Positions 9,851 to 64,000 of a DNA stretch of 64,000 nucleotides are shown here, one piece after another (position 1 is the stretch's first letter; every line of letters begins with the position of its first letter). The notes under the pieces are model-generated. The model did not search any database. It was not told the DNA's origin and saw nothing but the letters and a program-made list of their open reading frames with translations. The DNA is from a virus. The stretch covers positions 1 to 64,000 of IMG/VR virus record IMGVR_UViG_3300027985_000627; one strand, 5' to 3'. The position numbers were made by a program, and so were the translations under genes.

Positions 9851-10123
9851 ATGTGTCATTTAAACGATTTACCAGTCGTTGTTGACAAACCAGGAACTTA
9901 CATAACAAGAAACGGCAAAACCGTCATTGTTCACGAAATAAAACCATCTAAACACAAGGACAAATCTATCACTGAATTTTTGGTCAAAGGTTCTTTAATC
10001 ATTAGAAAAAATAACCGAGTACGTTATCATTATGACATATGGCACGTTTCAGGAAGATTTGAAGCTGTAATTCCTTGTGATATGGACATCATTGGAAAGG
10101 AGGAACAGTGTACATCCAAATAA
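9851..10123 (+). CDS. Hypothetical protein
   Basis: 90 residues, AAAGGAGAGTTT upstream. Strand-rich and basic: GTYITRNGKTVIVHEIKPS then RYHYDIWHVSGRF. Not recognised. Its 3' end overlaps the radical SAM gene by 16 bases and contains that gene's ribosome site. Confidence 0.55.
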   Translation: MCHLNDLPVVVDKPGTYITRNGKTVIVHEIKPSKHKDKSITEFLVKGSLIIRKNNRVRYHYDIWHVSGRFEAVIPCDMDIIGKEEQCTSK

Positions 10124-10734
10124 CAACAAGATGCAACATGGAATGCCCGCATTGCTGTTACGCTTGTACGGCAAAGGGTGAGGACATGTCTCTGAAAACA
10201 TTTAAACAGGCTTTGGAACTGGTAGAAGACTCAGGATCAACTGTCTGTATAGGCGGGGGTGAACCAACTCTTCATCCCAAGTTCTGGGACTTCATTGTTT
10301 TAGCTTTAGGAAACGAATACATCGAGTGTGTTTGGATGGCTACAAACGGAAAGAAAACCGAGTCGGCTTTACGTTTAGCAGCCATGGCTAAGAAAGGTAT
10401 TTTGAGTGTTGCGCTTTCTCAAGATTCGTATCATGAACCAATAGAAGAAAAGGTCATTGAGGCTTTCAAAGTTGATCCAAGGAGACAACATGACCGAGAC
10501 TTTCGAGAGATTAGAAACGTTGACGATCACGTTATAAAAGCTGGGAGGGCTGAAACCGAGCAAGAATGGCAAAGGGAAAACGATTGCGTTTGCAATGAAC
10601 TTTTCGTTGATCCTAAAGGAAACATTTGGCGGTGTGGCTGCAAAGAGGAACTGCTTGGTCATGTTTCTACTGGGTACGACATGAACAGTGATTACCGAAG
10701 TTGTTCAAAAGAAGAAAAAGAGGAGGACGAATGA
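10108..10734 (+). CDS. Radical SAM protein
   Basis: 208 residues from GTG (AAGGAGGAACA upstream). The N-terminus ITTRCNMECPHCCYAC carries the CxxxCxxC motif that binds the 4Fe-4S cluster of radical SAM enzymes, followed by CIGGGEPTLHP, the SAM-binding GGE motif. A C-terminal C-V-C-N-ELFVDPKGNIWRCGC segment resembles an auxiliary-cluster (SPASM/twitch-like) region. At 208 residues it is short, but all core motifs are present. Substrate unknown; a role in modifying DNA or a phage peptide is possible. It is distinct from the queE gene at 25675. Confidence 0.75.
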   Translation: MYIQITTRCNMECPHCCYACTAKGEDMSLKTFKQALELVEDSGSTVCIGGGEPTLHPKFWDFIVLALGNEYIECVWMATNGKKTESALRLAAMAKKGILSVALSQDSYHEPIEEKVIEAFKVDPRRQHDRDFREIRNVDDHVIKAGRAETEQEWQRENDCVCNELFVDPKGNIWRCGCKEELLGHVSTGYDMNSDYRSCSKEEKEEDE

Positions 10735-21500: not shown

Positions 21501-21680
21501 ATGCCTTTATATGATTTTCAATGCACTAATTGTAGAGAAGAGTTTGAAGAACAGGCTAAGGTAGAGACTATTTCAGTTCCTTGTCCTTCTTGTGGGGCTG
21601 ATAGTAAGAAACTGGTATCCACCCCAAGTTTTATTTTGAAGGGGGAGGGCTTCTACTCTACCAGGGATCAGTACGAATGA
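21501..21680 (+). CDS. FmdB-family zinc ribbon
   Basis: 59 residues: MPLYDFQCTNC ... VPCPSCGADS, the N-terminal PxYxxxCxxC and second CxxC of the FmdB/CxxC_CxxC_SSSS family, ending in SFILKGEGFYSTR. These are putative regulatory or assembly zinc ribbons. Upstream is GGGGGGAGG; the stop overlaps the start of the methyltransferase gene (ATGA). Confidence 0.75.
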   Translation: MPLYDFQCTNCREEFEEQAKVETISVPCPSCGADSKKLVSTPSFILKGEGFYSTRDQYE

Positions 21681-22843
21681 GATACTTGTCCCTTTTTTCC
21701 GGTATAGAAGCCGCTACAGCAGCGTGGAAGCCCTTGGGGTGGGAACCTGTAGCCTTTTCTGAGATAGATAAGTTCCCTTGTGCTGTTCTGAAGCATCCTT
21801 ACCCCTCTGTGCCTAATCTTGGTGATGTGACGAAGCTAGACGCCAGAATTTATCAGGGTGTGGTTGACGTGGTTGTCGGCGGATCGCCCTGTCAACCCTT
21901 CTCTATCTCGGGGATGAGAAAAGGGCTTAGGGATGCCCGTGGAAATTTAACCCTGGAGTATGCCAGTATAGTAAATGAGGTTAATCCGAAATATGTTGTA
22001 TGGGAAAACGTGCCAGGAGTCCTCTCAGACAAAACCAACGCCTTTGGATGCTTACTCGCAGCGCTTTCCGGCGAAAATGATCCGCTCATCCCTCCAGGGG
22101 GAAAATGGACAGACGCAGGTTACGTGCTTGGTCCCGAAAGAGCAGTTGCATGGCGATGCCTGGACGCCCAATATTTCGGCTTGGCCCAACGACGCAAGCG
22201 TGTGTTTGTTATCGCATGTCCTAGAAACGGGGCCGATCCACGAACGATTCTCTTTGAGTCCGATGGCTTGCGAAGGGATACTCCGCCGAGCAGAAACCAG
22301 AAAAAAGAGGATTCCTTTATTTCTGGAGAAAGTCTTGCGTTTGGTGGCGGGAACCAGGCAGGAAGTATAGATGTAGCTACTACTACTAAAACGGGGCTGC
22401 GTTTGGATTTTGATAGCGATACTTTTATCTGCTTTCATCCAACACAAGACCCCATCAGCAATGCGGAAGACATCTGCCACAGCCGAGGCTGTGGCAGTAG
22501 TGGCGGTGCTTGTACTGCTGCAATTGCATTTACACAGAACCAGTGCGGAGATGTTTTAGTTGGGGGTGTTATTCCTGCTTTGGGCACAAACCAGAATGCC
22601 ACAGGCAGGAATTCTCCGAAAGTCTTTTGGAATTGGCTTGTAAGGAGGCTAACCCCCAAGGAGTGTGAGCGTCTTCAGGGATTTTCAGACGACTACACTA
22701 ATATCCCTTATGGAAGACCTAAGTGGGAAGGTGAAATTTGTCCTGACGGACATAGGTACAAAGTGCTTGGAAATAGTATGGCGGTAAATGTCATGCGGTG
22801 GATTGGGAGACGTATCCAGACGGCGGAAGAGGGTAGACTATGA
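21677..22843 (+). CDS. C5-cytosine DNA methyltransferase
   Basis: 388 residues. Motif I LSLFSGIEAATAAW, motif IV GGSPCQPFSISG with the catalytic Cys, motif VI VWENVPG, motif VIII AQRRKRVF, motif IX LTPKECERLQGF and motif X GNSMAVNVMRWIG are all intact. It should transfer a methyl group to C5 of cytosine in a short DNA target; the recognition region is residues 195-310. No restriction enzyme is adjacent, so it likely protects phage DNA. It starts by ATGA overlap with the FmdB gene. Confidence 0.9.
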   Translation: MRYLSLFSGIEAATAAWKPLGWEPVAFSEIDKFPCAVLKHPYPSVPNLGDVTKLDARIYQGVVDVVVGGSPCQPFSISGMRKGLRDARGNLTLEYASIVNEVNPKYVVWENVPGVLSDKTNAFGCLLAALSGENDPLIPPGGKWTDAGYVLGPERAVAWRCLDAQYFGLAQRRKRVFVIACPRNGADPRTILFESDGLRRDTPPSRNQKKEDSFISGESLAFGGGNQAGSIDVATTTKTGLRLDFDSDTFICFHPTQDPISNAEDICHSRGCGSSGGACTAAIAFTQNQCGDVLVGGVIPALGTNQNATGRNSPKVFWNWLVRRLTPKECERLQGFSDDYTNIPYGRPKWEGEICPDGHRYKVLGNSMAVNVMRWIGRRIQTAEEGRL

Positions 22844-25089: not shown

Positions 25090-25287
25090 ATGTCTGCTAA
25101 AGCTAAATCCGCTGAAACTGACAACGAGTTTGAAAAGCAATTCACTTGCAAAGCTGGTATCGCTGGTCGCAAGCGCGGACTTACTGGACAAAGGTTAATT
25201 GATTTTATTAACAATCATCGGAAGGACCCTGCTGGTCATCGTGGTCGTCGCTTCTACCAATCCTCCACCTCCATCTTGGAGAAATAA
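25090..25287 (+). CDS. Hypothetical protein
   Basis: 65 residues, AAAGGAGCCAAT upstream. Basic, with CKAGIAGRKRGLTGQRLIDF and a G-H-R-G-R-R-F end. Not recognised; immediately upstream of queD. Confidence 0.5.
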   Translation: MSAKAKSAETDNEFEKQFTCKAGIAGRKRGLTGQRLIDFINNHRKDPAGHRGRRFYQSSTSILEK

Positions 25288-25288
25288 A

Positions 25289-25678
25289 GTGCTTACAGTA
25301 ACCAAACGGTTTCATTTCTGCTACGGGCACCATTTGCCTGGTCATCAAGGTAAGTGCAAAAACTTTCATGGACACAACTGTATATTGGAAGTTACCGTGT
25401 ACAAGAAAGGGTCTTCCAAAAAATCTAGCGAAGAAGAGTTTTATTTGGATCAAGCTATGGTTATGGATTTCGGTGATCTTAAAAAAGTTGTAAATCCGTT
25501 GATCGAGAAACTTGATCACCAAAATATTAATGAGGTTCTGCCTGAAAAGTACCTTCCCTCCACCGCAGAAAACATGTGTTTGTGGTTTTTGGATATGTTG
25601 GTGAAAGAGGGTATCGGTGTCGATAAAATTCGAATTTACGAAACCCCAGATAACTGGGCTACGTGGAGTAGTCGATGA
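25289..25678 (+). CDS. queD: 6-carboxy-tetrahydropterin synthase
   Basis: 129 residues from GTG 25289 (TTGGAG upstream). All QueD landmarks are present: FHFCYGHHLPGH with a zinc His, GKCKNFHGHN with catalytic Cys23 and zinc ligands His27/His29, MVMDFGDLK, LDHQNINE, PSTAENM and RIYETPDNWATW. It converts 7,8-dihydroneopterin triphosphate to 6-carboxy-5,6,7,8-tetrahydropterin, step two of 7-deazaguanine synthesis. Overlaps queE by 4 bases. In phages the pathway supplies modified bases for DNA. Confidence 0.9.
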   Translation: MLTVTKRFHFCYGHHLPGHQGKCKNFHGHNCILEVTVYKKGSSKKSSEEEFYLDQAMVMDFGDLKKVVNPLIEKLDHQNINEVLPEKYLPSTAENMCLWFLDMLVKEGIGVDKIRIYETPDNWATWSSR

Positions 25679-26334
25679 TCGTAAATGAAATTTTTCGATC
25701 CATTGACGGGGAAGCCAACTTCTACGGTCAAGGGATTCTCACTACGTTTATCCGACTTCAAGGATGTAACGTTCGGTGTGCTTTTTGCGACACCATGTAT
25801 TCTCAGGGACCGTATGATAAAGATGGCACGTCCATGTCTATCAACGAGATTTACGAAAAGGTTTGCAAACTCGGAAATGACAAGGTTACCATCACTGGTG
25901 GCGAGCCTTTGTTTCAGTTGGACGATGCAGCCACTTTAGCTCGGAAACTTTTGAGAAGTGGGACGAAAGTAACAATTGAAACAAACGGAACGATCATGAT
26001 TCCGAAAATCGGAAACGTTGGTTGGGTCGTTGATTTCAAGTTGCCTTCTTCTGGTGTGACTGATAAAATGTGTATGGAAATTTTTCCTGAACTGGGAGAA
26101 AAGGACATTATTAAGTTTGTAATTTCTGACAAATCGGACTTTGACAAAGCCATGCATGTTATTGCTAGCGGTGCTTTGGGAATTACCAAACCCAGAAACA
26201 AAAGGCCTAGGTTTGCATTCTCTCCCATTCTGCATCGTTTGGAACCAGTCAAATTGTTGAATTGGATGATGATGGCTGATTTGCAGGATTCGTTTCTAAG
26301 TGTTCAGGTACACAAACTTTTGAGCGTCAAATAA
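25675..26334 (+). CDS. queE: 7-carboxy-7-deazaguanine synthase
   Basis: 219 residues, ATGA overlap with queD. FIRLQGCNVRCAFCDTMYS carries CxxxCxxC (Cys31, 35, 38) for the radical SAM 4Fe-4S cluster and is a classic QueE start (EIFRSIDGEANFYG). VTITGGEPLFQ supplies the SAM-binding motif. It rearranges carboxy-tetrahydropterin to 7-carboxy-7-deazaguanine (CDG). No queC follows here, so CDG may be the last free base this phage makes itself. Confidence 0.9.
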   Translation: MIVNEIFRSIDGEANFYGQGILTTFIRLQGCNVRCAFCDTMYSQGPYDKDGTSMSINEIYEKVCKLGNDKVTITGGEPLFQLDDAATLARKLLRSGTKVTIETNGTIMIPKIGNVGWVVDFKLPSSGVTDKMCMEIFPELGEKDIIKFVISDKSDFDKAMHVIASGALGITKPRNKRPRFAFSPILHRLEPVKLLNWMMMADLQDSFLSVQVHKLLSVK

Positions 26335-26409
26335 TTTTCACGGAAATATGGCTAAGGTTCGATATCATAAGAACGAAAAACAATTTAACCACCCTTTGGA
26401 GGGAATGTC

Positions 26410-27027
26410 ATGAGCGATGGAATCAACATGAAGGAACTGAAGCAGGCCGTCACCGAACTTAACGAAGCTGGTGTTCTCGACAAGAAAATCAAGATTGTCG
26501 GCGTTGGCAAGGATGATCTGGCTGCCGCGTTTGAGGAAGCTGTCAACGGTCTGGACGATGAGAAGGCTGAAAAGCTGACCGCTTTCACCATTGATTTCTT
26601 CAACAACAACTTCGGTGAGGATGAGAATACCGAAGAAGGCGGCGTCGAAGCTTCGGATGAAGAAGAAACTGACGGTGAGGAATCTGAAGGTGAGGAAGAG
26701 CCGGAAGAAGAATCTGAGCCGGAAGAAGAAGAAAAGCCGAAGAAGGCTGCGAAGAAAGAAAAGGCCAAGAAGGCTCCCAAGGAAAAGAAAGAGAAGAAGT
26801 CGAAGGAGCCGGTCGAGAAGTCTCGTTACGGACACACTGTCGGCTCTCAAGCGGCCTTGATTGACGACGCTATTTTTGAAGGCGGCACGATGCAGGAGAT
26901 GATGGAAGCTACTGGTCTGTCTAAGGCTCGCATCAAATCCCATATTTACCATCTTGAAAAGAAGAAAGGCATTGTCATCAAGACCACCGGCGAAGGTGAC
27001 AAAACGGTTTTCAAAGCCAAGAAGTAA
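26410..27027 (+). CDS. Acidic-linker protein with C-terminal winged helix
   Basis: 205 residues behind GGAGGGAATGTC. A helical N-terminus (1-70) is followed by an extreme Glu-rich stretch (about 80-115), a Lys-rich stretch (115-140), and a C-terminal winged helix (TMQEMMEATGLSKARIKSHI, YHLEKKKGIVIKT). Probably a DNA-binding regulator or architectural protein. It sits between queE and folE and ends at a strong terminator, so it may control the deazaguanine genes; this is inference. Confidence 0.55.
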   Translation: MSDGINMKELKQAVTELNEAGVLDKKIKIVGVGKDDLAAAFEEAVNGLDDEKAEKLTAFTIDFFNNNFGEDENTEEGGVEASDEEETDGEESEGEEEPEEESEPEEEEKPKKAAKKEKAKKAPKEKKEKKSKEPVEKSRYGHTVGSQAALIDDAIFEGGTMQEMMEATGLSKARIKSHIYHLEKKKGIVIKTTGEGDKTVFKAKK

Positions 27028-27052
27028 CACCAAGTCACATTGAAATGTCATA

Positions 27053-27078
27053 GGGGAGGGTAACACCTCCCCTTTTTT
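27053..27078 (+). terminator. Intrinsic terminator
   Basis: GGGGAGG (27053-27059) and CCTCCCC (27066-27072) form a 7-bp GC-rich stem followed by six T. Placed between the acidic winged-helix gene and folE. Confidence 0.8.
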
Positions 27079-27087
27079 GGAGGAATT

Positions 27088-27663
27088 ATGGACCTTAATA
27101 AAATGGCTGAGGGTTTCAGAACCCTCATGGAAGCTTCTGACCTTGATTTGAATGATCCCAATTTTTGCGGCACTCCTATGCGAGTGGCCAGAATGTTCGA
27201 AAACTTCTTTGAAGGAACAAAACCTGAAGCCGAAGAAGAAATAGAAAAATACCTTTCTGTAACATTCCCTGCTGAATACAAAGAGCTTATCACGTTCCTC
27301 AATATATCTTGTTGGAGCATGTGCCCGCATCATTTTCTTCCTGTGAAGTACAACGTGTCTGTCGGTTATATTCCGAATGAAAGCGTTCTCGGTGCTTCGA
27401 AGATTCCTCGGCTTGTGATCTTGCTTGGAAAAAGACCTGTTCTTCAAGAACAGTTTACGAAGGACATAACGTCTTATATAAATAGATTTGCTAAACCTGC
27501 TGGCGTCATTGCTGTGGTTGAAGGGCGCCACATGTGTATGCAATCACGTGGTGTTAAGACAACTGCAACGATGAACACAGCCTCTTTGTCTGGATGTTTT
27601 GAAACACAGCATGAGACTAGAAAAGAGTTTTATGACCTTATAGCAAGGGGTTCCACGTTATGA
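27088..27663 (+). CDS. folE: GTP cyclohydrolase I
   Basis: 191 residues, TTGGAGGAATT upstream. CWSMCPHHFLP holds zinc ligands Cys79 and His82; GRHMCMQSRGV supplies the second zinc Cys and the conserved RGV; SKIPRLV and QEQFTKDI are also standard. It opens GTP to 7,8-dihydroneopterin triphosphate, the substrate of QueD, so it starts the deazaguanine pathway. Length is slightly under the bacterial norm of about 220. Confidence 0.92.
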   Translation: MDLNKMAEGFRTLMEASDLDLNDPNFCGTPMRVARMFENFFEGTKPEAEEEIEKYLSVTFPAEYKELITFLNISCWSMCPHHFLPVKYNVSVGYIPNESVLGASKIPRLVILLGKRPVLQEQFTKDITSYINRFAKPAGVIAVVEGRHMCMQSRGVKTTATMNTASLSGCFETQHETRKEFYDLIARGSTL

Positions 27664-28010
27664 GCAAAGAAAGAGTATTCGTCATCGTCAAGAGTGCTTT
27701 CGAAGCGGTACATAGCTGGCCCGAGTGTCCTATAGACGAGGTAGCTTTTCTCAGACACCCTCACAGACATATCTTTCATGTAACCGTGAAAATCGAAGTT
27801 TCCCACGATGACCGAGACGTTGAGTTCATTGTCTTCAAACGCAAGGTAAACGAATACTTGGAAGCTTTCTATTCTGGTAAAGACATCGGAAGGGAGTCTT
27901 GCGAAATGATAGCCAAAGAAATCATTTCCTACTTTTCGGAAAAGTATTCTATCCATTCTGTTTCAGTGTTCGAAGACAACGAAAACGGAGCGGAGGTGGT
28001 TTGTGGCTAA
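27660..28010 (+). CDS. QueD-like tunnel-fold protein lacking the catalytic Cys motif
   Basis: 116 residues, ATGA overlap with folE. FEAVHSWPECP and LRHPHRHIFHVTV are reminiscent of the QueD/PTPS zinc site (His18, His35, His37), but the C-x3-HGH of the true QueD at 25289 is replaced by AFLRHPHRH, so the nucleophilic Cys is not in its normal place; Cys23 might substitute. SHDDRDVEF and the C-terminal acidic end also differ. I infer a zinc enzyme acting on a pterin or deazaguanine intermediate. Overlaps the glycosyltransferase gene by 8 bases. Confidence 0.65.
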   Translation: MSKERVFVIVKSAFEAVHSWPECPIDEVAFLRHPHRHIFHVTVKIEVSHDDRDVEFIVFKRKVNEYLEAFYSGKDIGRESCEMIAKEIISYFSEKYSIHSVSVFEDNENGAEVVCG

Positions 28011-29028
28011 GATATTCAACGTCCCCATTGAGCCGTTGGACGCCCGTTACTCCACCCAATGGTTGGATTGGTTTTCTCAAGCTTTCATTTATCATGAAAT
28101 CGAATACCAGCATGTAATAGGAAAACCTCTGACCAATGAAATTGAAGACGGTGCTTTCCTAGATATCTGCGGTACCAACTACTACAAAGCTTCCCAGTTG
28201 ATGGTTCTCATTGACCTGATTAAGAATCGTGAAATACGAGATAACGATGTTGTCTTCTTTCACGATATTTGGTTTCCTGGTCTGGAAATGTTGCAGTACA
28301 TTCGTGACGGACTAAAATTGAATTTCAAGATTTACGGCTGCCTCCACAGCGGAACTTACGATCCTACGGACTACATTTCTCTTCTTGGTATGTCTCGTTG
28401 GGGAAGGGAACTTGAAGAATCTTGGTTCAAGATTGTTGACGGTATATTCGTCGCTACGGATTTCCATCGAAATCTTCTCATAAATAATCGGAAAGTTGAT
28501 TGGAAAAAAATACACGTTACGGGCTTCCCTTTGAAAGCCCCGGATATCTGCGACGTGAAAAAGATGGAGCCGAAGCAGAAACGGGTTGTTTTTCCCCATC
28601 GTTTGAACGCAGAAAAGCATCCTGAAAAGTTTGATGAAATGCGATTTAAATGGCCTTTGGGTCAAGATTGGGTTTTCTCGAAGACTCAGGATAAGAAGAT
28701 GGACAAAAGAACGTACTACAAATTCTTGTCTGATTCTTCGGTCGTCGTCTCTTTCTCAGATCATGAGAACTGGGGAATATCAATGATCGAGGGCGTTATG
28801 CTCGGATGTGTCCCTTTTGTTCCCAATCGTTGCAGCTACCCTGAATTATACCCGAAAATGTTCGTGTACGAAAATGAAGATGATTTGTACGGCAGACTTA
28901 TTCCGAATTACCTTAAAAATGAAAGTGATTACAAAGTCTACACCTACGCTTTAGCCGAACGTTTCAAACTGAAGTTTCACCCTATGAACGTGTTGCAAAA
29001 CATGCTACCCATCATGTTTGGAAGGTGA
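28003..29028 (+). CDS. GT-B glycosyltransferase, QTMAN-like
   Basis: 341 residues from GTG 28003 (GGAGGTGGTTT upstream). The C-terminal half has the GT4 donor site: FPHRLNAEKHPEKF (about 198-210), then VVVSFSDHENWGISMIEGV (about 247-265) with the E-x7-E pattern (Glu255, Glu263), and LGCVPFVPNRCSYPELYP. From memory these match the tRNA-queuosine mannosyltransferase (QTMAN/GTDC1), which has HRWEHDKDPESF, STAKHEFFGVAMLEAV and GCYPLCP-x-LVYPEIFP at equivalent places. QTMAN attaches mannose to queuosine, a 7-deazaguanine. Lying between a QueD-like gene and dpdA, this enzyme may glycosylate a deazaguanine in phage DNA. A generic glycosyltransferase is the alternative. Confidence 0.8.
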   Translation: MAKIFNVPIEPLDARYSTQWLDWFSQAFIYHEIEYQHVIGKPLTNEIEDGAFLDICGTNYYKASQLMVLIDLIKNREIRDNDVVFFHDIWFPGLEMLQYIRDGLKLNFKIYGCLHSGTYDPTDYISLLGMSRWGRELEESWFKIVDGIFVATDFHRNLLINNRKVDWKKIHVTGFPLKAPDICDVKKMEPKQKRVVFPHRLNAEKHPEKFDEMRFKWPLGQDWVFSKTQDKKMDKRTYYKFLSDSSVVVSFSDHENWGISMIEGVMLGCVPFVPNRCSYPELYPKMFVYENEDDLYGRLIPNYLKNESDYKVYTYALAERFKLKFHPMNVLQNMLPIMFGR

Positions 29029-29031
29029 TAC

Positions 29032-29931
29032 GTGTCTAAGAAAGAAATTACCATGTTCTTGGACTCCGGAGCATACTCGGCTATGACTAAAGGGGCTGAG
29101 ATTGATCTGGACGAATACATTGCTTTCATCAAAGAGAATGGTCATTATTTCGACGCCTACGCTTGCCTTGACGTTATCGGTGATCCCAAAGCGAGTTGGG
29201 AAAACCAGATGTACATGGTGAGCAAAGGTCTTTGTCCTGTTCCTGTTTACCACTTGAACGACCGTGACCTTTCATACCTGAAAGCTATGGTTGACGAGTT
29301 CCCTTACATAGGTATCGGTGGTATGGCTGGAACGGAAGAGACAGGATTCTCGTTGACTTGGGAACAGGTTGTAGAACTTCTGGATCACCTTTGGTCTGAT
29401 TACATTTGCGACAAAGACGGTTTACCGAAAGTCAAAGTTCACGGGTTCGGTATGACTCGTCCTACAATCATGCGTCGGTATCCGTGGTACTCTGTGGATT
29501 CTACTTCTTGGGCCATCTATTCAAAGTACGGCATTGTACTATTTCCTAGAAAGAAAAACGGACAATACGTCTATGACAAAGAAGTTTGGAAGATTAAAGT
29601 ATCCAGCGTGTCTCCTGGTAAGAAAGATGAAGGAGAACACATTGAAAACGTTACCGATACAGAACGAAAAGTCCTTCTCGACTACATCAAAGAGAAGGGT
29701 TTTAAACTTGGAGCGTCTGAATTCAAAGATGTTGAAGTAGGTTACAAACTCAAAGAGAACGAGCGGTTTAATGGCAAAGGCAAAACCCGAGTGGAAGTCC
29801 TTGTAGAAACTGGTTTGGTCAATTCTGGTGAACTGCGAGATCGTTTAAACTTCATCTACTACATGGATTTTCTCGCTACAATTCCTAAGTGGCCGTGGTC
29901 ATTTAAAACCAGAAGACGTTTTATATTTTGA
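29032..29931 (+). CDS. dpdA: DpdA-like deazaguanine-DNA transglycosylase
   Basis: 299 residues from GTG 29032. TGT-fold landmarks are MFLDSGAYSAM (Asp11, the general acid/base position), YIGIGGMAGTEE, KVHGFGMTRP, and WYSVDSTSW with candidate nucleophile Asp156. The zinc-binding cysteines of tRNA TGTs are absent, as in phage DpdA. Such enzymes swap guanine in DNA for a free 7-deazaguanine base, hiding sites from restriction. The neighbouring folE, queD and queE supply the base. Which DpdA subfamily it belongs to cannot be judged by eye. Confidence 0.82.
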   Translation: MSKKEITMFLDSGAYSAMTKGAEIDLDEYIAFIKENGHYFDAYACLDVIGDPKASWENQMYMVSKGLCPVPVYHLNDRDLSYLKAMVDEFPYIGIGGMAGTEETGFSLTWEQVVELLDHLWSDYICDKDGLPKVKVHGFGMTRPTIMRRYPWYSVDSTSWAIYSKYGIVLFPRKKNGQYVYDKEVWKIKVSSVSPGKKDEGEHIENVTDTERKVLLDYIKEKGFKLGASEFKDVEVGYKLKENERFNGKGKTRVEVLVETGLVNSGELRDRLNFIYYMDFLATIPKWPWSFKTRRRFIF

Positions 29932-29938
29932 GGTCGCT

Positions 29939-30457
29939 ATGAAACAGCAAATGTTTGTTATCAATGGTCGTGGTGGAAGTGGAAAAGATACGTTTGTTGG
30001 TTTTTGCCGAATTCACGGATTAAAGTACAATGCTGGTGTCATGAACATATCAACCGTTGATCGGGTAAAAATGGCTGCGGAACTCTTAGGTTGGGATGGA
30101 TCCAAAGACTATAAGAATAGGAAGTTTCTCAGTGATTTGAAAGATATTTCAACAGCTATGTTTGATGGGCCTTTCAACTACATAGAGGCTCGTTGGGAAT
30201 CAGCTTTAAAATTCAAAAATAACATGGCTATGTTTGTGCATTGCAGAGAACCGCAAGAGATCGACAGGCTTGTGAAGTCGTTCAAAGCACAGACGGTTCT
30301 TGTTGAACGAAACGGAATAGGTGAGTACGGCAATCATGCCGACGACAACGTGAACAATTTTGCTTACGACCACTACATCGAAAATCACGGTATTCTTATA
30401 GACCTCAATGTGAAAGCTGGTTTATTCATGAAAAACGCTTTTTCGGAGCTTGAATAG
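29939..30457 (+). CDS. Deoxynucleoside monophosphate kinase-like protein
   Basis: 172 residues. VINGRGGSGKDTFV is a Walker A of the phage dNMP kinase type (x-GxxGxGKD), followed by WDGSKDYKNRKFLSDLKD and a lid-like helix. T4 gp1-type enzymes convert dNMPs to dNDPs for replication. Size is below T4 gp1 (241), so substrate range is uncertain. Directly downstream of dpdA, an action on modified nucleotides cannot be excluded, though DpdA exchange is post-replicative. Confidence 0.7.
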   Translation: MKQQMFVINGRGGSGKDTFVGFCRIHGLKYNAGVMNISTVDRVKMAAELLGWDGSKDYKNRKFLSDLKDISTAMFDGPFNYIEARWESALKFKNNMAMFVHCREPQEIDRLVKSFKAQTVLVERNGIGEYGNHADDNVNNFAYDHYIENHGILIDLNVKAGLFMKNAFSELE

Positions 30458-56136: not shown

Positions 56137-57023
56137 TCACTGACGGTAGGACCGGAAACAACAACCTTAAAATCCTTGTAAAAACCGTAAACAATAGAAC
56201 TTCTATAGGTAACTTCTTCCCCGTCAGAATTATCGACGATAAAAACGGAAGGTGTGGCCCTTATAGACTCAAGGTATGCCACGGCATCGTCTACATCGTC
56301 GTTGTCTATGTATAAATCTAACGACCTTGTTTTTTTGTAATTTCCTGTTTTCAGATAAGTAGCGCCGAAGTCGTCTGTGCTTTTTATCGAATAATCACTG
56401 ATACCCATCTCAAGACCAAACCGTACTGCGCCAATCCGTTTCGATTTTCCTATGATAGCAGCACCACAACTAGCGTTGTACCCGCGAAGAACCAAGTTTG
56501 CCCGAGAATTGTAGAATTTTGGTATCGTAAAAACTGCCGAAGTTAAGTAGGAAAATTCATCGAAAAAGTAATCCGACCAAGTTGTGGATGTTCTTTTGTC
56601 CGTCATGTACAAATAGGAACTTGAATAGGCTACGCCGGAGGCGTCTTTTGCAGCAACAAAAGCCTCGTTGCATAGGCAATCCACAAGGACCACTGTATCG
56701 CACATGGAGGAACTTACAAGGACATTGATCCCTTCTTCCTCCTCGCCAACAGTACTGGTGTTGACGTAAGAATCGAACATTCGCCAACGATTGGTATAAC
56801 CGCAATCGAGCCAATAAGGATCAGTGGTGTCGCAGTTATCCGGCGGATAGTGGTTGAGATTAGACGCTTTCAACGACTGGTATATTTTGTGAGTAGCCGT
56901 TACTATAACGTAGTCGCCAATGGCATACGTGGTTGCCGAACTGTAAGCATCGTAATCATCTTCCGCTACACTGGTAGAAATAAGTTTTGAGCCTGTTATC
57001 TCTCTTGGAACAATGACTCTCAT
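56106..57023 (-). CDS. Conserved tail protein with a CBM5/12-like N-terminus
   Basis: 305 residues. YSSATTYAIGDYVIVTATHK then IYQSLKASNLNHYPP and DPYWLDCG is the aromatic pattern of chitin-binding-type (CBM5/12) folds common in phage tail-tip proteins. The body (WRMFDSYVNTSTV ... GISDYSIKSTDDFGATYL) is conserved across siphovirus tails. Lies directly downstream of the tape measure, as tail-tip proteins do. Confidence 0.65.
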   Translation of the reverse strand: MRVIVPREITGSKLISTSVAEDDYDAYSSATTYAIGDYVIVTATHKIYQSLKASNLNHYPPDNCDTTDPYWLDCGYTNRWRMFDSYVNTSTVGEEEEGINVLVSSSMCDTVVLVDCLCNEAFVAAKDASGVAYSSSYLYMTDKRTSTTWSDYFFDEFSYLTSAVFTIPKFYNSRANLVLRGYNASCGAAIIGKSKRIGAVRFGLEMGISDYSIKSTDDFGATYLKTGNYKKTRSLDLYIDNDDVDDAVAYLESIRATPSVFIVDNSDGEEVTYRSSIVYGFYKDFKVVVSGPTVSECSVEVEGLI

Positions 57024-60000
57024 TGCGTGGTCCTCTCTTTCGGAAGTCCTTCATCGTCCCACCGGCTTATCTTATCAGCCAGCTTTTGAGTGTCTTTCCT
57101 CAGCAAATACAAACGGTCATTCATGTCTTTTCGCATCTCGCGCATTTCGGCCTGCAAGCCTTCAGACGAAAACTCCCCACTCAAAGTTACGGGAATGGTA
57201 TGCCCATCAGGGAGGGGAACATAGGCTTCTGGGATTGATCCTTCACCGTAAATAGCTACTTGGGGGGTGTTTGCTATTCCACCACTGGAATAGAGGTTGA
57301 TAGGACCACGAGAGGTCATGATTCCACCATTGGCGAATCCATATTCTTCTCTAAGATCAAGATAATCCTGATACGCTTCGAGGTATGCATCATACAAAGC
57401 ATTCGTATTGGAATCTAAGCGGTTGGAAGAGTTGAATTGGTTCAACACCCAGGACCAATCAACATACCCACTTCCTTCTCCGTAGCTTTGCTGCCACCAA
57501 TCCAACCAACTGCTTCTTTCAGAGGCAGATGCGCTATTCCACCAATTGATTCCATAGGCATTCTGGAAAATGTTATTAGCCATTTGGTATCCAGCGCCGG
57601 AATTAGCAATGCCTTGAACCATCGTTCCTTGTGTGGAATTCTGTATCGAAGAAATGGCTTGCTGCTGTAGAGCTTGGTATTGAGATTGTAAAGCGGAAAG
57701 CTGGGTTTCAGCTTGCAACTGTTCCGCAAGATCGTTTACCGCTCCCACTACGTCTCCAGTCACGCTTATAAGAGAGGCCGTGTGTCCATTTATTCCGCTG
57801 AGATAGCCGAGACCAGTCTGACTATCCGATTGCATAGCGTTCCAGATTTCATCGTCGAAGGTGATGCCGCTTTGGAGAAGATTGTAGGTAGCCATCTGGT
57901 ACCCAACTCCAGCACCGACCCTGGAACGTAATGCCTGTGCTTCAGTCAGAGACGTTCCAGCTACGTCAACCGTTGTGGTTGTCTGGCTTCCTATAAGTTC
58001 TCCAACTATGCCTATAGCAGTGGCGTTTTGAGCCAGTAGTTCGGTTTGCGTCCCTCCCTCTTCCAAAAGCTCTTTCTGTAGTTCAAGCAAGCTGATTTGG
58101 ATTTCAAGAAGTTGAGACAGGGTGTCCTGTCTCGCGCCTTCCAAGTCTCCAAGCACTTCCAAAGACGCCAGCTGGCTTGTCACCCTTCCGAAAGTCTTTG
58201 AGTATTCAAAAGGATCAGTGGTAGAACTTTTAGCAGCTTCAAGGTACGCTTGTGCATAATCAGCCACACTTTCAGCAGCATCTATATCGCCAGACATAGC
58301 CTTGGCATATGTTTCTTCGTACCAAGACTTTGCCGTGGTAGTTTTTTGGTCGGCAGTAAGGTTGGAACTGTCACCAAGAAGAAGGTCTTCAAGGAGCCCT
58401 TGGACAGTATCAGCTACAGCATACCAACGGTCCCGCAGTTCGTCGGCTGCGTCTTTCGCGGCATTTGCACCGTCCAGCATGTAATCTACTTGGTCTATAG
58501 CGGCCTCAAGCGCATCATCCAAAGCATCCTGCAGCCTGTCAGCCAAAGAATCAGCGGAGTCGGCAGCGTCATCAAGGGAGTCCTGTATATCAGACCAGTA
58601 TTTAGCCATCTCGCGAAGTTGCACATTCTGCAATTCGGTAATTTCAGATTGGGACAGGCCGTTGTCGTAAGCTTCCTGAAGTTCTTTGGCTTGCTCCACG
58701 AGTATCTGTGCAGCTTCCGCTTCCTCTTCTTTACCTTCTAATACAAGGTTGCGATAGCGCATATCTTGTTCAAAGGCTTCTTTTGTGGCTTGCAATTCCG
58801 CATTTTTCGCAGAAACGTAAGCGTACTTTTCAGCCTTCATGGCCGCTTCTAAAGCATCAGCCACCTCTTGGCCGTATTTCCAAGTGGTGTCGTAAAGCTC
58901 TTTAACGTTGTTGGCCTGCTCCATAGCAAATAACGACGTTTCATCTTCCACAGCATCATAATACCGTTTATTGGCACTGGCTAAAGCTTCCAGCCGTTCT
59001 TCTTCTTTGTCAGCAGCTAGTTTCTTCAATTCAATTTCTTGAACTTCAGCAAGGTACGCCAACTGTGCAGCCGACGCGCCAGCTTCTCTTGCCTCAACAA
59101 GCTCCCACTCGTGGGAAGTCAATAAATCCAAAAGATCAGCTTCGTCTTCCCGACCTTCCGCCGCTAACTTTCTTTGCTCAAGGGACTCACTCCATTTTTG
59201 CCAAGTACGACGATTTTCTTCAAGTTGGTCATTAACTTCAGCCAGAGAATCAGCGTACTTAGCTGCTTGGTTCCAATAAGCAAAGGCTTCTGGATCCATA
59301 TAAGAATTCAAGGCTTCCTCAAACTTGTCCCAGAAATTTTCAACGGTTATGCCCGAATCACCGATAATTCCTTCAAGGTTTTCTATAGCGTTGGAAGCAT
59401 TCGCGGTATAATAGATAACAGCCGAATCCAGTAACTCCCAAGATTCCTTTGTTCTATTAGAAATACGCTCCCATGCAGCATCCCACTCTTCATCACCACC
59501 AACAGCTTCGATAAGTTTGGAAGCGTAGTCAGCAAGGGCAAACGTTTTCAATTGTTCGTCGGTTACGTCGAGGACAACCCCCACGCTTTCTAAAGCTTCT
59601 GTCGTAGTATCGAGAGTAGTAGATAAGCTGTCCACAGCTTCCGTAGCTGTGTCGAATGTTCCGTAAGCATCGCTCCAACTTTCACTCATACCCTGTGCGG
59701 CAAAATCAGTTTCAGAAGCAATGTTCTGCGTTGCACTGGTTATAGTGTCCATAGAAACCGAAGCATTCACAGAAGCCCCTTCTATTCCTTCCATCATAGA
59801 AGCAGCTTGTGACATGGCGTTAGACATAGCTGTATCGTACGGTTCCAAAGTAGAAGCAGTCTCTTCTGCGGAAGACCTCATAGCATCAAGGGTTTCTTGC
59901 GTTACCCCGGCTAACGTTTCTAAACTGTAACCGTAGTAAAAAGTAGTTTCATTGGCTTTCACATAAGCCGACTGTAACCTATTGAGCGTTTCGAGAAGTG

Positions 60001-63000
60001 TTTCGCTATCTTTTTGTAAATCGGTCACTACAGGAAGAAGTCCTTCAGAATCCAACTTGAAGTAAGCCATAGCGTTACCGAGATTCTTGAAGTAATCTTC
60101 CAACTGTTCATCAGTAACGTCAAACTCGGGAAAATCCCAGTTTGACAAATCAGTGTCAAAATCAAACAAAGTTCCAGCTTCTTTGAGAGCTTCGACGTTG
60201 GTTTGATATGCATCCTCAATGGACTGTATTGCTTCAGGATCTAAAGAAACGGTTCTGATTTCATGTGAGGTATTTTCACCAAACATGGACTTTTCTTCAA
60301 CCGTGTAGTATTCAGAACCAGAACCGTACATCATGCCGTCTACGACGCCGAGTTTGTAACCAGTTCCAGTTTGAGTTTCTGTTTTCTTTGTATCAAATCC
60401 TCCGGTAAGAGCAGTAAGACCAAGACCAATAACAGCTCCTATACCTGCGGTAGCTAATCCAGACATAAGGCTAGCACCCACACCAGTAGCAGCAGGTATT
60501 GCAGCATCAAGGCTCGCTCCTATCATTCCGGCTATTTCGGTATCCAAAGTAGTGGTGGCTGTTTCAGCTATCGCTATGGTGGCTTCTGATCCAGCCGAAC
60601 TGAAAAAGCTACCCATGGAACTTTCTATAGCACTACCTAAGTAGGAGTCTAAAGCATCGCCGCCTATACTGGTCGCAATATTGGTGGCTGAATTGGAACC
60701 AGACCCAAAAGAGCCTGTCAAATTGTCTATTCCACCTCCAATAAAACTTTCCATCATGGGACCAATAACCTGAGCTTTTAAGAACTCAGCAATCATTTGT
60801 TCCACGAAAGAAGCAACCATATCGAGCATTCTGGACAACATGTTCTGCCAAAGGTCTTCCAAAGAAGCAGAACCATCGGCAAATCCACGTATCATGTCAC
60901 CAAAAGAACCAGAAATACCTGAAACCATATCATCCGTAGCTGACTTAATAAACGACGCTGTTTCAACAGCAAGTTCACGTTTCTTAGTGTCTGCGGACTT
61001 GTAAAGATCGTATTCTAAGGCTAACTGGGCTTTGAAGGCTTCGCTGGATGAGCCAGTCTTAGTCTTCTCTTCCAAACTGTTCTGGCGCTCCGCTTCTGCT
61101 TTAGCCTGTGAGAACGCAGCTACTTCGGCATTTCCAGCAGCCTGAGCTTTAGCAGCAATACCATCCCACATACTAGCCCGAGTAGCGTATATGGCAGCCG
61201 AATTTTCGAGGAGATATTCGAGGACCTTTTGTGCTGCCTCTCTTTCTTTCGAACCGCCTTCTTCATATTTAACAATTTCTTTATTGACAAGGTCCTCAGT
61301 ATCTTCAAAGGAAAGCTCTCCGTATTTGATCTTAGCTTCAACTATCTTATCCTGAATTTTCAGAATTTCAGTTTTTTTCCAATTTTCAAGCTGAATGGTA
61401 TCTGAACCGTTCTTTTTAGCTACTTTGTACAGTTCATCATACATAGCAAGGATGCTTTTTTCTTCACCACCACCTGGTTTTGTACCAAAAACCTCTTGGT
61501 AAGTATCAGACAAAGCAGCCTCAACCTTCAACTCCCTAAGCTGTTTAATTTGATCGACAAGACCTTCTACCGACTCGCCAGCAGACTTAGCCTTTTGCTC
61601 TGCGTTGTACAACATGTTAGTCATTTCTTTATCAATGTTGGCCAACGTTTTCGCAAAGTCATTTCCTGATATATCAGCCAAAGTAGCGTCAACAGCCGCC
61701 TTGATTGTATCGTTGTAGTGATCGTAGGCATCGGATTTCTTTTCAGCAGCGGCAGCGGCAGCTAAAGCCGCGTTTGCGGCTAGCTCATCGGCTTTGGTGA
61801 TTTTATCTATCTCGTTCTTTTGGTTTTCAAGAACTTGCTGGTAATCCGCTTGCGCTCTCGTCCTGGTTTCCAAAGAAAGTTCTTCGTTGTTAGCTATAGA
61901 AAGCAGCGATTCCAAATGCTTCGCATACTTGGCATTAAGCTCCTCAATCTTTTGTGCGGAGTCTTTAGCTGTTTTAGGAATATCTTTGAGTAGGTTATCC
62001 ATTTTTCTCTGGGCAGCCGCATTAGCTAAAGCCGAATCTTTCGACCTATCAATGGCGTCAGATAGTTTACCAATAGGGTCGAGGGACTCTTCTATATTAT
62101 GAGATATGGTTTTTCCCATATCGGGGTTGGCCGCAGCCAACATCATATCCCCAAGGTCATTGTAGTTACTGGCTAACTGAGCGATGTCCTTTTGTAAGGC
62201 TTTACCGGTAGCAGACTCCTGGCCCATAAGATTAAGTTGGTCGTACTTAGCCGCCATCTGCTTCTTAATCAACTCTTGTTCTTCTTTAAGAAGCTCCTCA
62301 TTGGTACGGATCAGACCAACCTTCTTTTCCCATCTGTCCTGAATATTCTGCTCTAAAGCGGCTACGCCCTTCTGAGCTTCCTCGTATTCCTTTGAACCAA
62401 CAGACAAGCCAGACAAAGCCTCTCGTTGCTTATCCAAAAGAGTGTTTCCATACTCTATGGAGTATGACATTACTTCGTAAGAATTAGTGGCTTTGTAAGC
62501 CACAGCAGCTATCACACCAGCAATAGCTATACCTTTCGGACCCAACATGATAGCTCCGATTAAACCCAGTTCACGGATGATCGGAGGAAGAGAATTGTAA
62601 ATGCTTATGACAGTATTGGCAAAATCTGTTGCGGCTGTGATACCGGAAGCCAACGCTGTGATTGTTTTCCCTATTTCTTCACCAAAACGACCAACAGCCT
62701 CAATGAAATCCGGAGATTGAAACTGCGTTGTAAGTTCATTGATAAAATTGACTGCGGCGTCGAGAAAACCGTTCTCAGACATAGCGATTTTCAAATCCAT
62801 CCAAGCCATTTGAAAACGGTCTATAGCACGAACAGCTAAACCAACAGCTTTCTCAGCAGTTCCAGCAAATCTATCTTCGAGAGCCCGGGCAAACTTGGGT
62901 ATAAATTCCTCAGTGGCTAATTCACCCTCTTTAACCATACGCATAAGCTCGGTAGTAGTTGCCCCCATAGCTTGTGCTGCTATTTGGAAAGCACCAGGCA

Positions 63001-64000
63001 ACTGGTTACCTAACTGTCTACGGAGTTCTTCCATAGATATGGTGCCTTTTGAAATCATCTGTTCGACAGCGTACAAGGAGCCTTTTATTTTATCATTGGA
63101 AAGACCAAGAGCGGAACCTGCGGTTATCAAAGCCTGGTAAATTTTGTGGACTTCTTGTCCTTCCAAAGCAGTACCCATAGCCGCAGCGGAAATGCTTTTG
63201 TAACCATCAGCCAGAGAATAAAAATTCAAACTCAATTTTTCCGATGTATCACGTAGCCACGCAAGCTCTTTCGAAGCCCCTTGTGCGCTGCCAGCAATAC
63301 CTTCAAAAGAAAGTTTCAATTGTTGGTAATCGGCTCCAGCTTCAAAGATGCTTCTAATCATCGAACCGATACCGTAACCAACAAGAGCGTAGTACAGGTT
63401 CCTGATCGTGAATACAACCGAGTTCAAATCCCTGGCGTGTTGTAAAGCGGATTTAGAACCAGAGGCATGAGAACTGTTGAGGCGCTTCTGGGCTTGTTCC
63501 AAAAGTCTAGCCTCTTTAGCCCCTTGTTTAGCAGCTTCAGCCAAATCTTTTTCCGCTTGCTGCAATTTTCTGGCAGAAGATATCGAAGCAGCCTCTTCAC
63601 CACGTTGGGCTTTGTACGCCGCAACGACTTCCCGCACCTTTTCCTTCAACTTATTGAAAGCATCGGAAAGCTCTTTCTTTGAAACGACACCTGCCTTCTC
63701 CAGACGTTTAATCTCTCGATATGCGTCAGTGTACCCCTTCAACTGTGCCTTAAGCTCAGACGTTGAGGTAAGACCCAAGGTACCCATACTCTGAGTCTTA
63801 GACTGCGAAGAAGTGTTTCCCAATTCAGAGTACAAACGCTTGGATGTAGCAATGAACTCGTTCAACTTCTTTTCGGCCGCAGTGATCGGACCAGTCAAAG
63901 AGTCTTTGTTTCTTTCACCAACAGAGCGAAGTTCAGAATATAAATTTTTAACGTTAGCAAGGTATTCTCTGGTGAAGTCTTTCAATTCACCAGTATTACC
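57020..64000 (-). CDS. Tape measure protein, 5' end outside window
   Basis: The frame is open to the window edge; at least 2,321 residues lie inside and the true start is beyond 64000. The tape-measure N-terminal domain is clear (LSFEGIAGSAQGASKELAWL, LNFYSLADGYKSISAAAMGT, TISMEELRRQLGNQLPGAFQ, LATEEFIPKFARAL). A hydrophobic stretch LGLIGAIMLGPKGIAIAG follows, then long coiled coils and a Gly-rich hydrophobic region (SAATGVGASLM-type, near 60.4-60.7 kb). The C-terminus (NGGIMTSRGPINLYSSGGIA, PEAYVPLPDGHTIPV) is typical. At about 1.5 angstroms per residue the tail would exceed 300 nm; this is an estimate from the usual relation. Confidence 0.93.
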   Translation of the reverse strand, partial: GNTGELKDFTREYLANVKNLYSELRSVGERNKDSLTGPITAAEKKLNEFIATSKRLYSELGNTSSQSKTQSMGTLGLTSTSELKAQLKGYTDAYREIKRLEKAGVVSKKELSDAFNKLKEKVREVVAAYKAQRGEEAASISSARKLQQAEKDLAEAAKQGAKEARLLEQAQKRLNSSHASGSKSALQHARDLNSVVFTIRNLYYALVGYGIGSMIRSIFEAGADYQQLKLSFEGIAGSAQGASKELAWLRDTSEKLSLNFYSLADGYKSISAAAMGTALEGQEVHKIYQALITAGSALGLSNDKIKGSLYAVEQMISKGTISMEELRRQLGNQLPGAFQIAAQAMGATTTELMRMVKEGELATEEFIPKFARALEDRFAGTAEKAVGLAVRAIDRFQMAWMDLKIAMSENGFLDAAVNFINELTTQFQSPDFIEAVGRFGEEIGKTITALASGITAATDFANTVISIYNSLPPIIRELGLIGAIMLGPKGIAIAGVIAAVAYKATNSYEVMSYSIEYGNTLLDKQREALSGLSVGSKEYEEAQKGVAALEQNIQDRWEKKVGLIRTNEELLKEEQELIKKQMAAKYDQLNLMGQESATGKALQKDIAQLASNYNDLGDMMLAAANPDMGKTISHNIEESLDPIGKLSDAIDRSKDSALANAAAQRKMDNLLKDIPKTAKDSAQKIEELNAKYAKHLESLLSIANNEELSLETRTRAQADYQQVLENQKNEIDKITKADELAANAALAAAAAAEKKSDAYDHYNDTIKAAVDATLADISGNDFAKTLANIDKEMTNMLYNAEQKAKSAGESVEGLVDQIKQLRELKVEAALSDTYQEVFGTKPGGGEEKSILAMYDELYKVAKKNGSDTIQLENWKKTEILKIQDKIVEAKIKYGELSFEDTEDLVNKEIVKYEEGGSKEREAAQKVLEYLLENSAAIYATRASMWDGIAAKAQAAGNAEVAAFSQAKAEAERQNSLEEKTKTGSSSEAFKAQLALEYDLYKSADTKKRELAVETASFIKSATDDMVSGISGSFGDMIRGFADGSASLEDLWQNMLSRMLDMVASFVEQMIAEFLKAQVIGPMMESFIGGGIDNLTGSFGSGSNSATNIATSIGGDALDSYLGSAIESSMGSFFSSAGSEATIAIAETATTTLDTEIAGMIGASLDAAIPAATGVGASLMSGLATAGIGAVIGLGLTALTGGFDTKKTETQTGTGYKLGVVDGMMYGSGSEYYTVEEKSMFGENTSHEIRTVSLDPEAIQSIEDAYQTNVEALKEAGTLFDFDTDLSNWDFPEFDVTDEQLEDYFKNLGNAMAYFKLDSEGLLPVVTDLQKDSETLLETLNRLQSAYVKANETTFYYGYSLETLAGVTQETLDAMRSSAEETASTLEPYDTAMSNAMSQAASMMEGIEGASVNASVSMDTITSATQNIASETDFAAQGMSESWSDAYGTFDTATEAVDSLSTTLDTTTEALESVGVVLDVTDEQLKTFALADYASKLIEAVGGDEEWDAAWERISNRTKESWELLDSAVIYYTANASNAIENLEGIIGDSGITVENFWDKFEEALNSYMDPEAFAYWNQAAKYADSLAEVNDQLEENRRTWQKWSESLEQRKLAAEGREDEADLLDLLTSHEWELVEAREAGASAAQLAYLAEVQEIELKKLAADKEEERLEALASANKRYYDAVEDETSLFAMEQANNVKELYDTTWKYGQEVADALEAAMKAEKYAYVSAKNAELQATKEAFEQDMRYRNLVLEGKEEEAEAAQILVEQAKELQEAYDNGLSQSEITELQNVQLREMAKYWSDIQDSLDDAADSADSLADRLQDALDDALEAAIDQVDYMLDGANAAKDAADELRDRWYAVADTVQGLLEDLLLGDSSNLTADQKTTTAKSWYEETYAKAMSGDIDAAESVADYAQAYLEAAKSSTTDPFEYSKTFGRVTSQLASLEVLGDLEGARQDTLSQLLEIQISLLELQKELLEEGGTQTELLAQNATAIGIVGELIGSQTTTTVDVAGTSLTEAQALRSRVGAGVGYQMATYNLLQSGITFDDEIWNAMQSDSQTGLGYLSGINGHTASLISVTGDVVGAVNDLAEQLQAETQLSALQSQYQALQQQAISSIQNSTQGTMVQGIANSGAGYQMANNIFQNAYGINWWNSASASERSSWLDWWQQSYGEGSGYVDWSWVLNQFNSSNRLDSNTNALYDAYLEAYQDYLDLREEYGFANGGIMTSRGPINLYSSGGIANTPQVAIYGEGSIPEAYVPLPDGHTIPVTLSGEFSSEGLQAEMREMRKDMNDRLYLLRKDTQKLADKISRWDDEGLPKERTTQ

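Follow-up and report, generated by a model that had tools for sequence, protein, structure and literature searches.

A QTMAN-related glycosyltransferase in phage 7-deazaguanine cassettes and its probable role in the sugar decoration of DNA

Many phages that carry 7-deazaguanine genes also encode a glycosyltransferase (GT) related to QTMAN, so their DNA probably bears a sugar-decorated deazaguanine. QTMAN (GTDC1, PF12038) is the tRNA-queuosine mannosyltransferase, and its acceptor is a 7-deazaguanine derivative within a nucleic acid. It is likely that the phage enzyme works as a retaining GT and attaches a sugar to a 7-deazaguanine derived from 7-carboxy-7-deazaguanine (CDG) in phage DNA, after this base has been inserted by the transglycosylase DpdA. 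The gene lies in a window of 64 kb, the whole stretch of DNA analyzed here, which is part of an IMG/VR virus record of 87,318 bases, possibly itself a fragment. Comparison of the window with phages at the DNA level gave no similarity. Outside the region of interest, the window holds an ORF of 2321 amino acids on the minus strand (57020–63985).

Organization of the cassette

Eight genes, all on the plus strand, run from 25199 to 30457 in the order queD, queE, a gene for an acidic/basic protein, folE, queD2, GT, dpdA and a gene resembling deoxynucleoside monophosphate kinases. The queD-like gene (25199–25678, true start ambiguous within 25199–25300) encodes a canonical PTPS protein with the CxxxHGH motif (PF01242, E = 2.3e-31; phrog_2389, 2e-20). 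The queE-like gene (25675–26334) encodes a radical SAM protein of the CDG synthase type, matched by phrog_2076 (1.5e-35) and by the NCBIfam QueE models. The acidic/basic protein (26410–27027) has no clear family match and a possible C-terminal helix-turn-helix; it recurs in the close cassette relative L178 (4810–5475; profile match, E = 1e-20). A folE-like gene for GTP cyclohydrolase I follows (27088–27663; PF01227, 4.4e-49), overlapping by 4 bases with queD2 (27660–28010), which encodes a divergent protein of the PTPS fold (phrog_17812, 4.7e-22; PF01242, 0.0012). The GT gene (28003–29028) starts with GTG and encodes 341 amino acids. The initial annotation had placed it between a QueD-like gene and dpdA, overlapping or abutting both, and the junctions agree, since it overlaps queD2 by 8 bases and is followed after 3 bases by dpdA. 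The latter (29032–29931) encodes a DpdA1-like DNA-guanine transglycosylase (phrog_887, 1.1e-52) with related places in 258 phage records. The kinase-like gene (29939–30457; phrog_139, 1e-06), 7 bases downstream, ends the run and is a putative cassette member.

The window holds what marks dpd-type modification, namely a DpdA transglycosylase together with the base-synthesis genes for FolE, QueD and QueE, whereas QueC (PF06508) had no match in the 87-kb record, possibly a fragment. Compared with known dpd-type systems (DpdA with FolE, QueD, QueE and QueC), the cassette shares the base pathway and the DNA transglycosylase but lacks QueC and carries in addition QueD2 and a glycosyltransferase.

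Fold of the glycosyltransferase and its kinship to QTMAN

Sequence searches with the window protein by itself revealed little. Pfam gave weak GT4 matches alone (PF13439, 1.7e-5; PF00534, 0.0037), phmmer against the PDB gave no matches, and single-protein scans of viral and genome contigs returned no relatives. An AlphaFold (AF2) model, folded from an alignment of 37 sequences consisting of the window protein and IMG/VR homologues, adopts a confident GT-B fold (mean pLDDT 92). By Foldseek, its closest PDB structures are the GT4 enzymes MshA, GlgM and BshA (E about 1e-11 and TMq 0.69–0.74 for MshA and BshA), and among viral models the homologue of phage ACP17 is the closest. The signature motifs R200-x4-K205 and E255-x7-E263 are present, with R200 conserved in 36 of the 37 GTs, K205 in 35, Glu or Asp at position 255 in 36 and E263 in all 37. 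These four residues are presumably catalytic, as is generally the case in GT4 enzymes. Both the modelled fold and the signature residues thus point to a GT4-like retaining enzyme. Such a fold alone would also be compatible with an ordinary enzyme of LPS or capsule synthesis that sits in the cassette by chance, as GT4 enzymes often act on surface glycans.

Kinship was evaluated against 22 bacterial PF12038 proteins collected from 261 genomes (5 in 61 genomes and 17 in 200 genomes). A profile built from the 37 phage GTs was searched against the same genomes, and all 22 PF12038 proteins outranked every other bacterial GT (47–77 bits versus at most 26 bits), ranking immediately beneath the cassette GTs themselves in both genome sets. 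The single other match of intermediate score covered 60 columns and came from a Magnetospirillum genome that carries a cassette of its own. Profile–profile comparison by hhalign aligned the phage GT family with QTMAN over 262 columns in both domains (E = 4.9e-21), with the HR-x4-K, [ED]-x7-E and SYPE blocks in register. In a tree of the 22 QTMANs, the phage GTs and the best-scoring other GT4s as controls, the QTMANs formed one branch (support 100) and the phage GTs a separate one (88) that does not fall inside the QTMAN clade; the grouping of both to the exclusion of the controls received a weak support of 62. In addition, PF12038, the QTMAN_N domain, had no match in the window GT at E < 1 and none in the whole record. 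Among the cellular families found, QTMAN stands closest to the phage GTs by these sequence comparisons, and the phage GTs represent their own lineage rather than members of that family.

The first reading had described the protein as QTMAN-like on the basis of three motifs in its C-terminal half and their resemblance to QTMAN. All three motifs are present (residues 199–210, 247–265 and 268–284), and the 22 PF12038 proteins carry the same motifs in the same order. As a statement of nearest kinship the description holds by profile rank; as a statement of membership it does not, given the missing PF12038 match and the separate branch. For the same two reasons the phage GT is not QTMAN itself. That it might nevertheless act as a true QTMAN, glycosylating queuosine in host tRNA during infection, would accord with QTMAN being the nearest cellular family, yet its neighbors are DNA transglycosylases and the cassette has no queuosine gene beyond CDG. 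Together with the domain and tree results, this makes a tRNA substrate highly improbable. The phage GT therefore resembles QTMAN in being a GT4-type enzyme that can be aligned over both domains with common HR-x4-K, [ED]-x7-E and SYPE blocks and, as proposed here, in using a 7-deazaguanine derivative in a nucleic acid as acceptor, and differs in its domain content, its lineage, its DNA-modification neighborhood and a cassette that makes no queuosine.

Linkage to deazaguanine genes in other phages

In cultured phages, GTs sharing about 30% identity with the window protein occur in five mutually unrelated groups, with deazaguanine genes alongside in every case. The groups are Acidovorax ACP17, the Pseudomonas PA5oct/PAC2 group, Synechococcus BUCT-ZZ01, Sinorhizobium Phosso and Xanthomonas X1. 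In all five the GT clusters with queE and queD2 (phrog_17812), and in most also with folE and a TGT-like protein; the queD2 homologue adjoins the GT in four of the five, and PAC2 has its folE outside the cluster, at another place in the genome. QueC was not found in ACP17, PAC2, BUCT-ZZ01 or Phosso. A distant GT was seen in one further group, Xanthomonas PhiXhv and Erwinia Ep032. In PhiXhv-15 (L006/L013) the neighbors of this GT include a Gat-QueC-like gene, a PIG-L deacetylase and an oxidoreductase, and neither QueD2 nor DpdA was detected with the profiles used here. Other acceptors may thus exist for the GT family, and the locus is possibly another hypermodification system. Its reading as a case of glycosylated archaeosine was dropped, as no DpdA was found by profile and the neighbors include proteins that appear FemAB-like by eye.

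Two surveys of IMG/VR extended the linkage. The first, selected by queD2, comprised 80 loci, of which 51 carry the GT, 27 a short phrog_20335 protein that folds in models as a tRNA-guanine transglycosylase (TGT), and none both. A DpdA1- or DpdA2-like transglycosylase accompanies the GT in 45 of the 51 loci, and the GT is found in 0 of the 27 loci with the short protein. The queD2 loci thus fall into two modes, one with the short TGT-fold protein and no GT, the other with a DpdA1/DpdA2-like enzyme and the GT. The Fisher values for these associations (2e-13 and 3e-19) are overstated, as the loci are related and some look to be near copies (L032/L033, L077/L078). For the phrog_10773 group, the name DpdA2-like is based on TGT-type motifs (DSGGLQ, SFDEIP) and on the annotation in X1; searching the PDB by sequence gave no confirmation of it. 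The second survey, selected by GT sequence with search patterns from the GTs of the queD2 loci, gave 78 new loci, and every one of them (78/78) holds at least one deazaguanine gene; where full flanks were available, queD2 and a transglycosylase were both present (32/32). queC occurred in 0 of these 32 loci and, by a local single-seed profile, in 0 of the 80 queD2 loci. The pattern recurs in lineages as far apart as ACP17, Phosso and X1, which makes for a strong link, at the level of gene content, between the GT and genes for 7-deazaguanine in DNA.

The five cultured groups and the 78/78 and 32/32 loci bear out the initial view that the GT belongs to a phage 7-deazaguanine DNA-modification cassette, and the dpdA link expected in other phages recurs. 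Assignment to an unrelated wall or capsule family, which had been named as one outcome that would overturn this view, was not seen. A surface-glycan function is very unlikely in light of the 78/78 count and of the other bacterial GT4s scoring far below QTMAN on the phage-GT profile. To our knowledge, the phage DNA GTs described so far act on modified pyrimidines, which would favor a different target, such as a derivative of cytosine or thymine, with deazaguanine used by the same phages as well. A gene for a C5-cytosine DNA methyltransferase precedes the cassette by a few kb (21677–22843; PF00145, 1.8e-45). Nevertheless, no gene for pyrimidine hydroxymethylation is among the record's 25 commonest families listed, and the GT is linked to folE, queE, queD2 and dpdA, so that a pyrimidine acceptor appears quite improbable.

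Related islands also occur in bacterial genomes. Magnetospirillum genomes (L099, L100, L102, L105) contain a GT-queD2-DpdA-queD island, of which one genome has two copies; regulator genes and integrase-like genes lie close by. Three actinobacterial loci (L106–L108) have the arrangement DpdA1-queD2-queD-queE-folE and no GT; L107 is probably a prophage, because its neighbors look like terminase and portal genes.

Cui in 2023 is said to have described one DpdA subfamily that replaces all guanines, as well as phages with carboxy- or plain 7-deazaguanine. Cellulophaga phiST, which belongs here to the short TGT-fold mode with no GT, may presumably be one of the latter.

Proposed pathway and its implications

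FolE, QueD and QueE, which yield CDG by an established pathway (PMC6884629, PMC13329287), would convert GTP into this base. Because queC is absent, the precursor is probably CDG-derived and would remain on the CDG branch, where QueD2 probably tailors it. DpdA would then exchange guanine in phage DNA for the CDG-branch base, and the GT would move a sugar from an NDP-sugar onto the base in DNA. The product would be bulky, restriction-resistant DNA, its purpose comparable to that of glucosyl-hydroxymethylcytosine in T4. The T4-type glucosyltransferases are likewise phage GT-B enzymes that sugar DNA bases, as proposed for the window GT, although they belong to another GT family and their acceptor base is hydroxymethylcytosine.

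The role of QueD2 is suggested by its residues. Its alignment retains the three metal-binding histidines of the PTPS fold and the base-binding glutamate (H18, H35, H37, E105), and the catalytic cysteine of the CxxxHGH motif is missing; its ligand should therefore be a pterin-like or deazaguanine ring, and its chemistry other than that of QueD. In two phages queD2 is fused to a further N-terminal part (L008, 8197–9378; L009, 8458–9342). CDG decarboxylation is one speculative candidate activity; a CDG decarboxylase named DpdL is reportedly described in Cui 2023, and phrog_17812 might correspond to it. A correspondence to the decarboxylase of the tubercidin pathway found no support, as the enzyme proposed there is the UbiD-family TubF (PMC6112128). 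Close cassette relatives carry extra radical SAM genes beside the GT, a Pfam Radical_SAM gene in L014 (6257–7633) and a CxxxCxxC radical SAM-like protein in L178 (7993–8643), which may suggest further tailoring of the base. The window, too, encodes a small radical SAM-like protein (10108–10734), which resembles the one in L178 (6e-10). A phosphoribosyltransferase recurs in 33 loci (e.g., L002, 10333–10767; L003, 3081–3554) and perhaps salvages the guanine released by DpdA.

Several attachments of the sugar can be envisaged. With CDG as the DNA base, the carboxylate could carry the sugar as an acyl glycoside; plain 7-deazaguanine would leave a C-glycoside at carbon 7 or an N-linked sugar as options; and if another enzyme tailors the base, the new substituent could serve as acceptor. 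The evidence favors none of these options over the others. The specific combination in which QueD2 is a CDG decarboxylase and plain 7-deazaguanine, having no substituent to glycosylate, is joined by the GT directly to a sugar at carbon 7 is considered doubtful. If true, hundreds of phages, cultured Pseudomonas jumbo phages among them, would have a C-glycosylated base in their DNA. As to the donor, NAD epimerase/GDP-mannose dehydratase-like genes occur in 17 GT loci, near the GT, versus 3 loci of the other mode, a weak enrichment (p about 0.05–0.11). Relatives also have a DegT aminotransferase and other sugar-nucleotide enzymes near the GT, each as a single case. No sugar-nucleotide gene is present in the cassette of the window, so the GT there would use an NDP-sugar of the host.

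Glycosylation could also precede insertion. Soluble glycosides of this kind include huimycin and the pterin glucosides of cyanobacteria. The GT might accordingly act on the free base or on a pterin intermediate, with DpdA inserting a pre-glycosylated base or the glycoside remaining a soluble metabolite. FolE and QueD both act in pterin chemistry, the Foldseek matches include a pterin glucosyltransferase (9v0w) at rank 50, and HuiG of huimycin biosynthesis is a proposed GT for the attachment of N-acetylglucosamine to a 7-deazapurine (PMC7439116). HuiG, however, serves a small-molecule natural product of an actinomycete and not DNA. Moreover, QTMAN as the nearest cellular family acts on 7-deazaguanine already in a nucleic acid, a sugar would need to fit the base pocket of the transglycosylase, and the coupling of the GT to particular DpdA types points to a step at the DNA level. 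Glycosylation of a free intermediate is therefore unlikely, and we infer that deazaguanine already placed in DNA is the acceptor.

No report of a glycosylated 7-deazaguanine in DNA was found in the literature searched, nor any published mass spectrometry or chemical measurement for these phages; a mention in Cui 2023 or in the 2024 MMBR review is possible. The 2019 paper on phage deazaguanines contains no word beginning with "glycos" (PMC6884629). On the reading given here, glycosylated 7-deazaguanine is a predicted new class of DNA hypermodification in widespread phages, several of them already cultured, and the cassette points to a pathway branch that lacks QueC and has a conserved paralog of QueD. 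If this is true, the glycosylation of queuosine in tRNA would be linked to the glycosylation of phage DNA, and the glycosylated deazaguanine may serve as a counter-defence against restriction.
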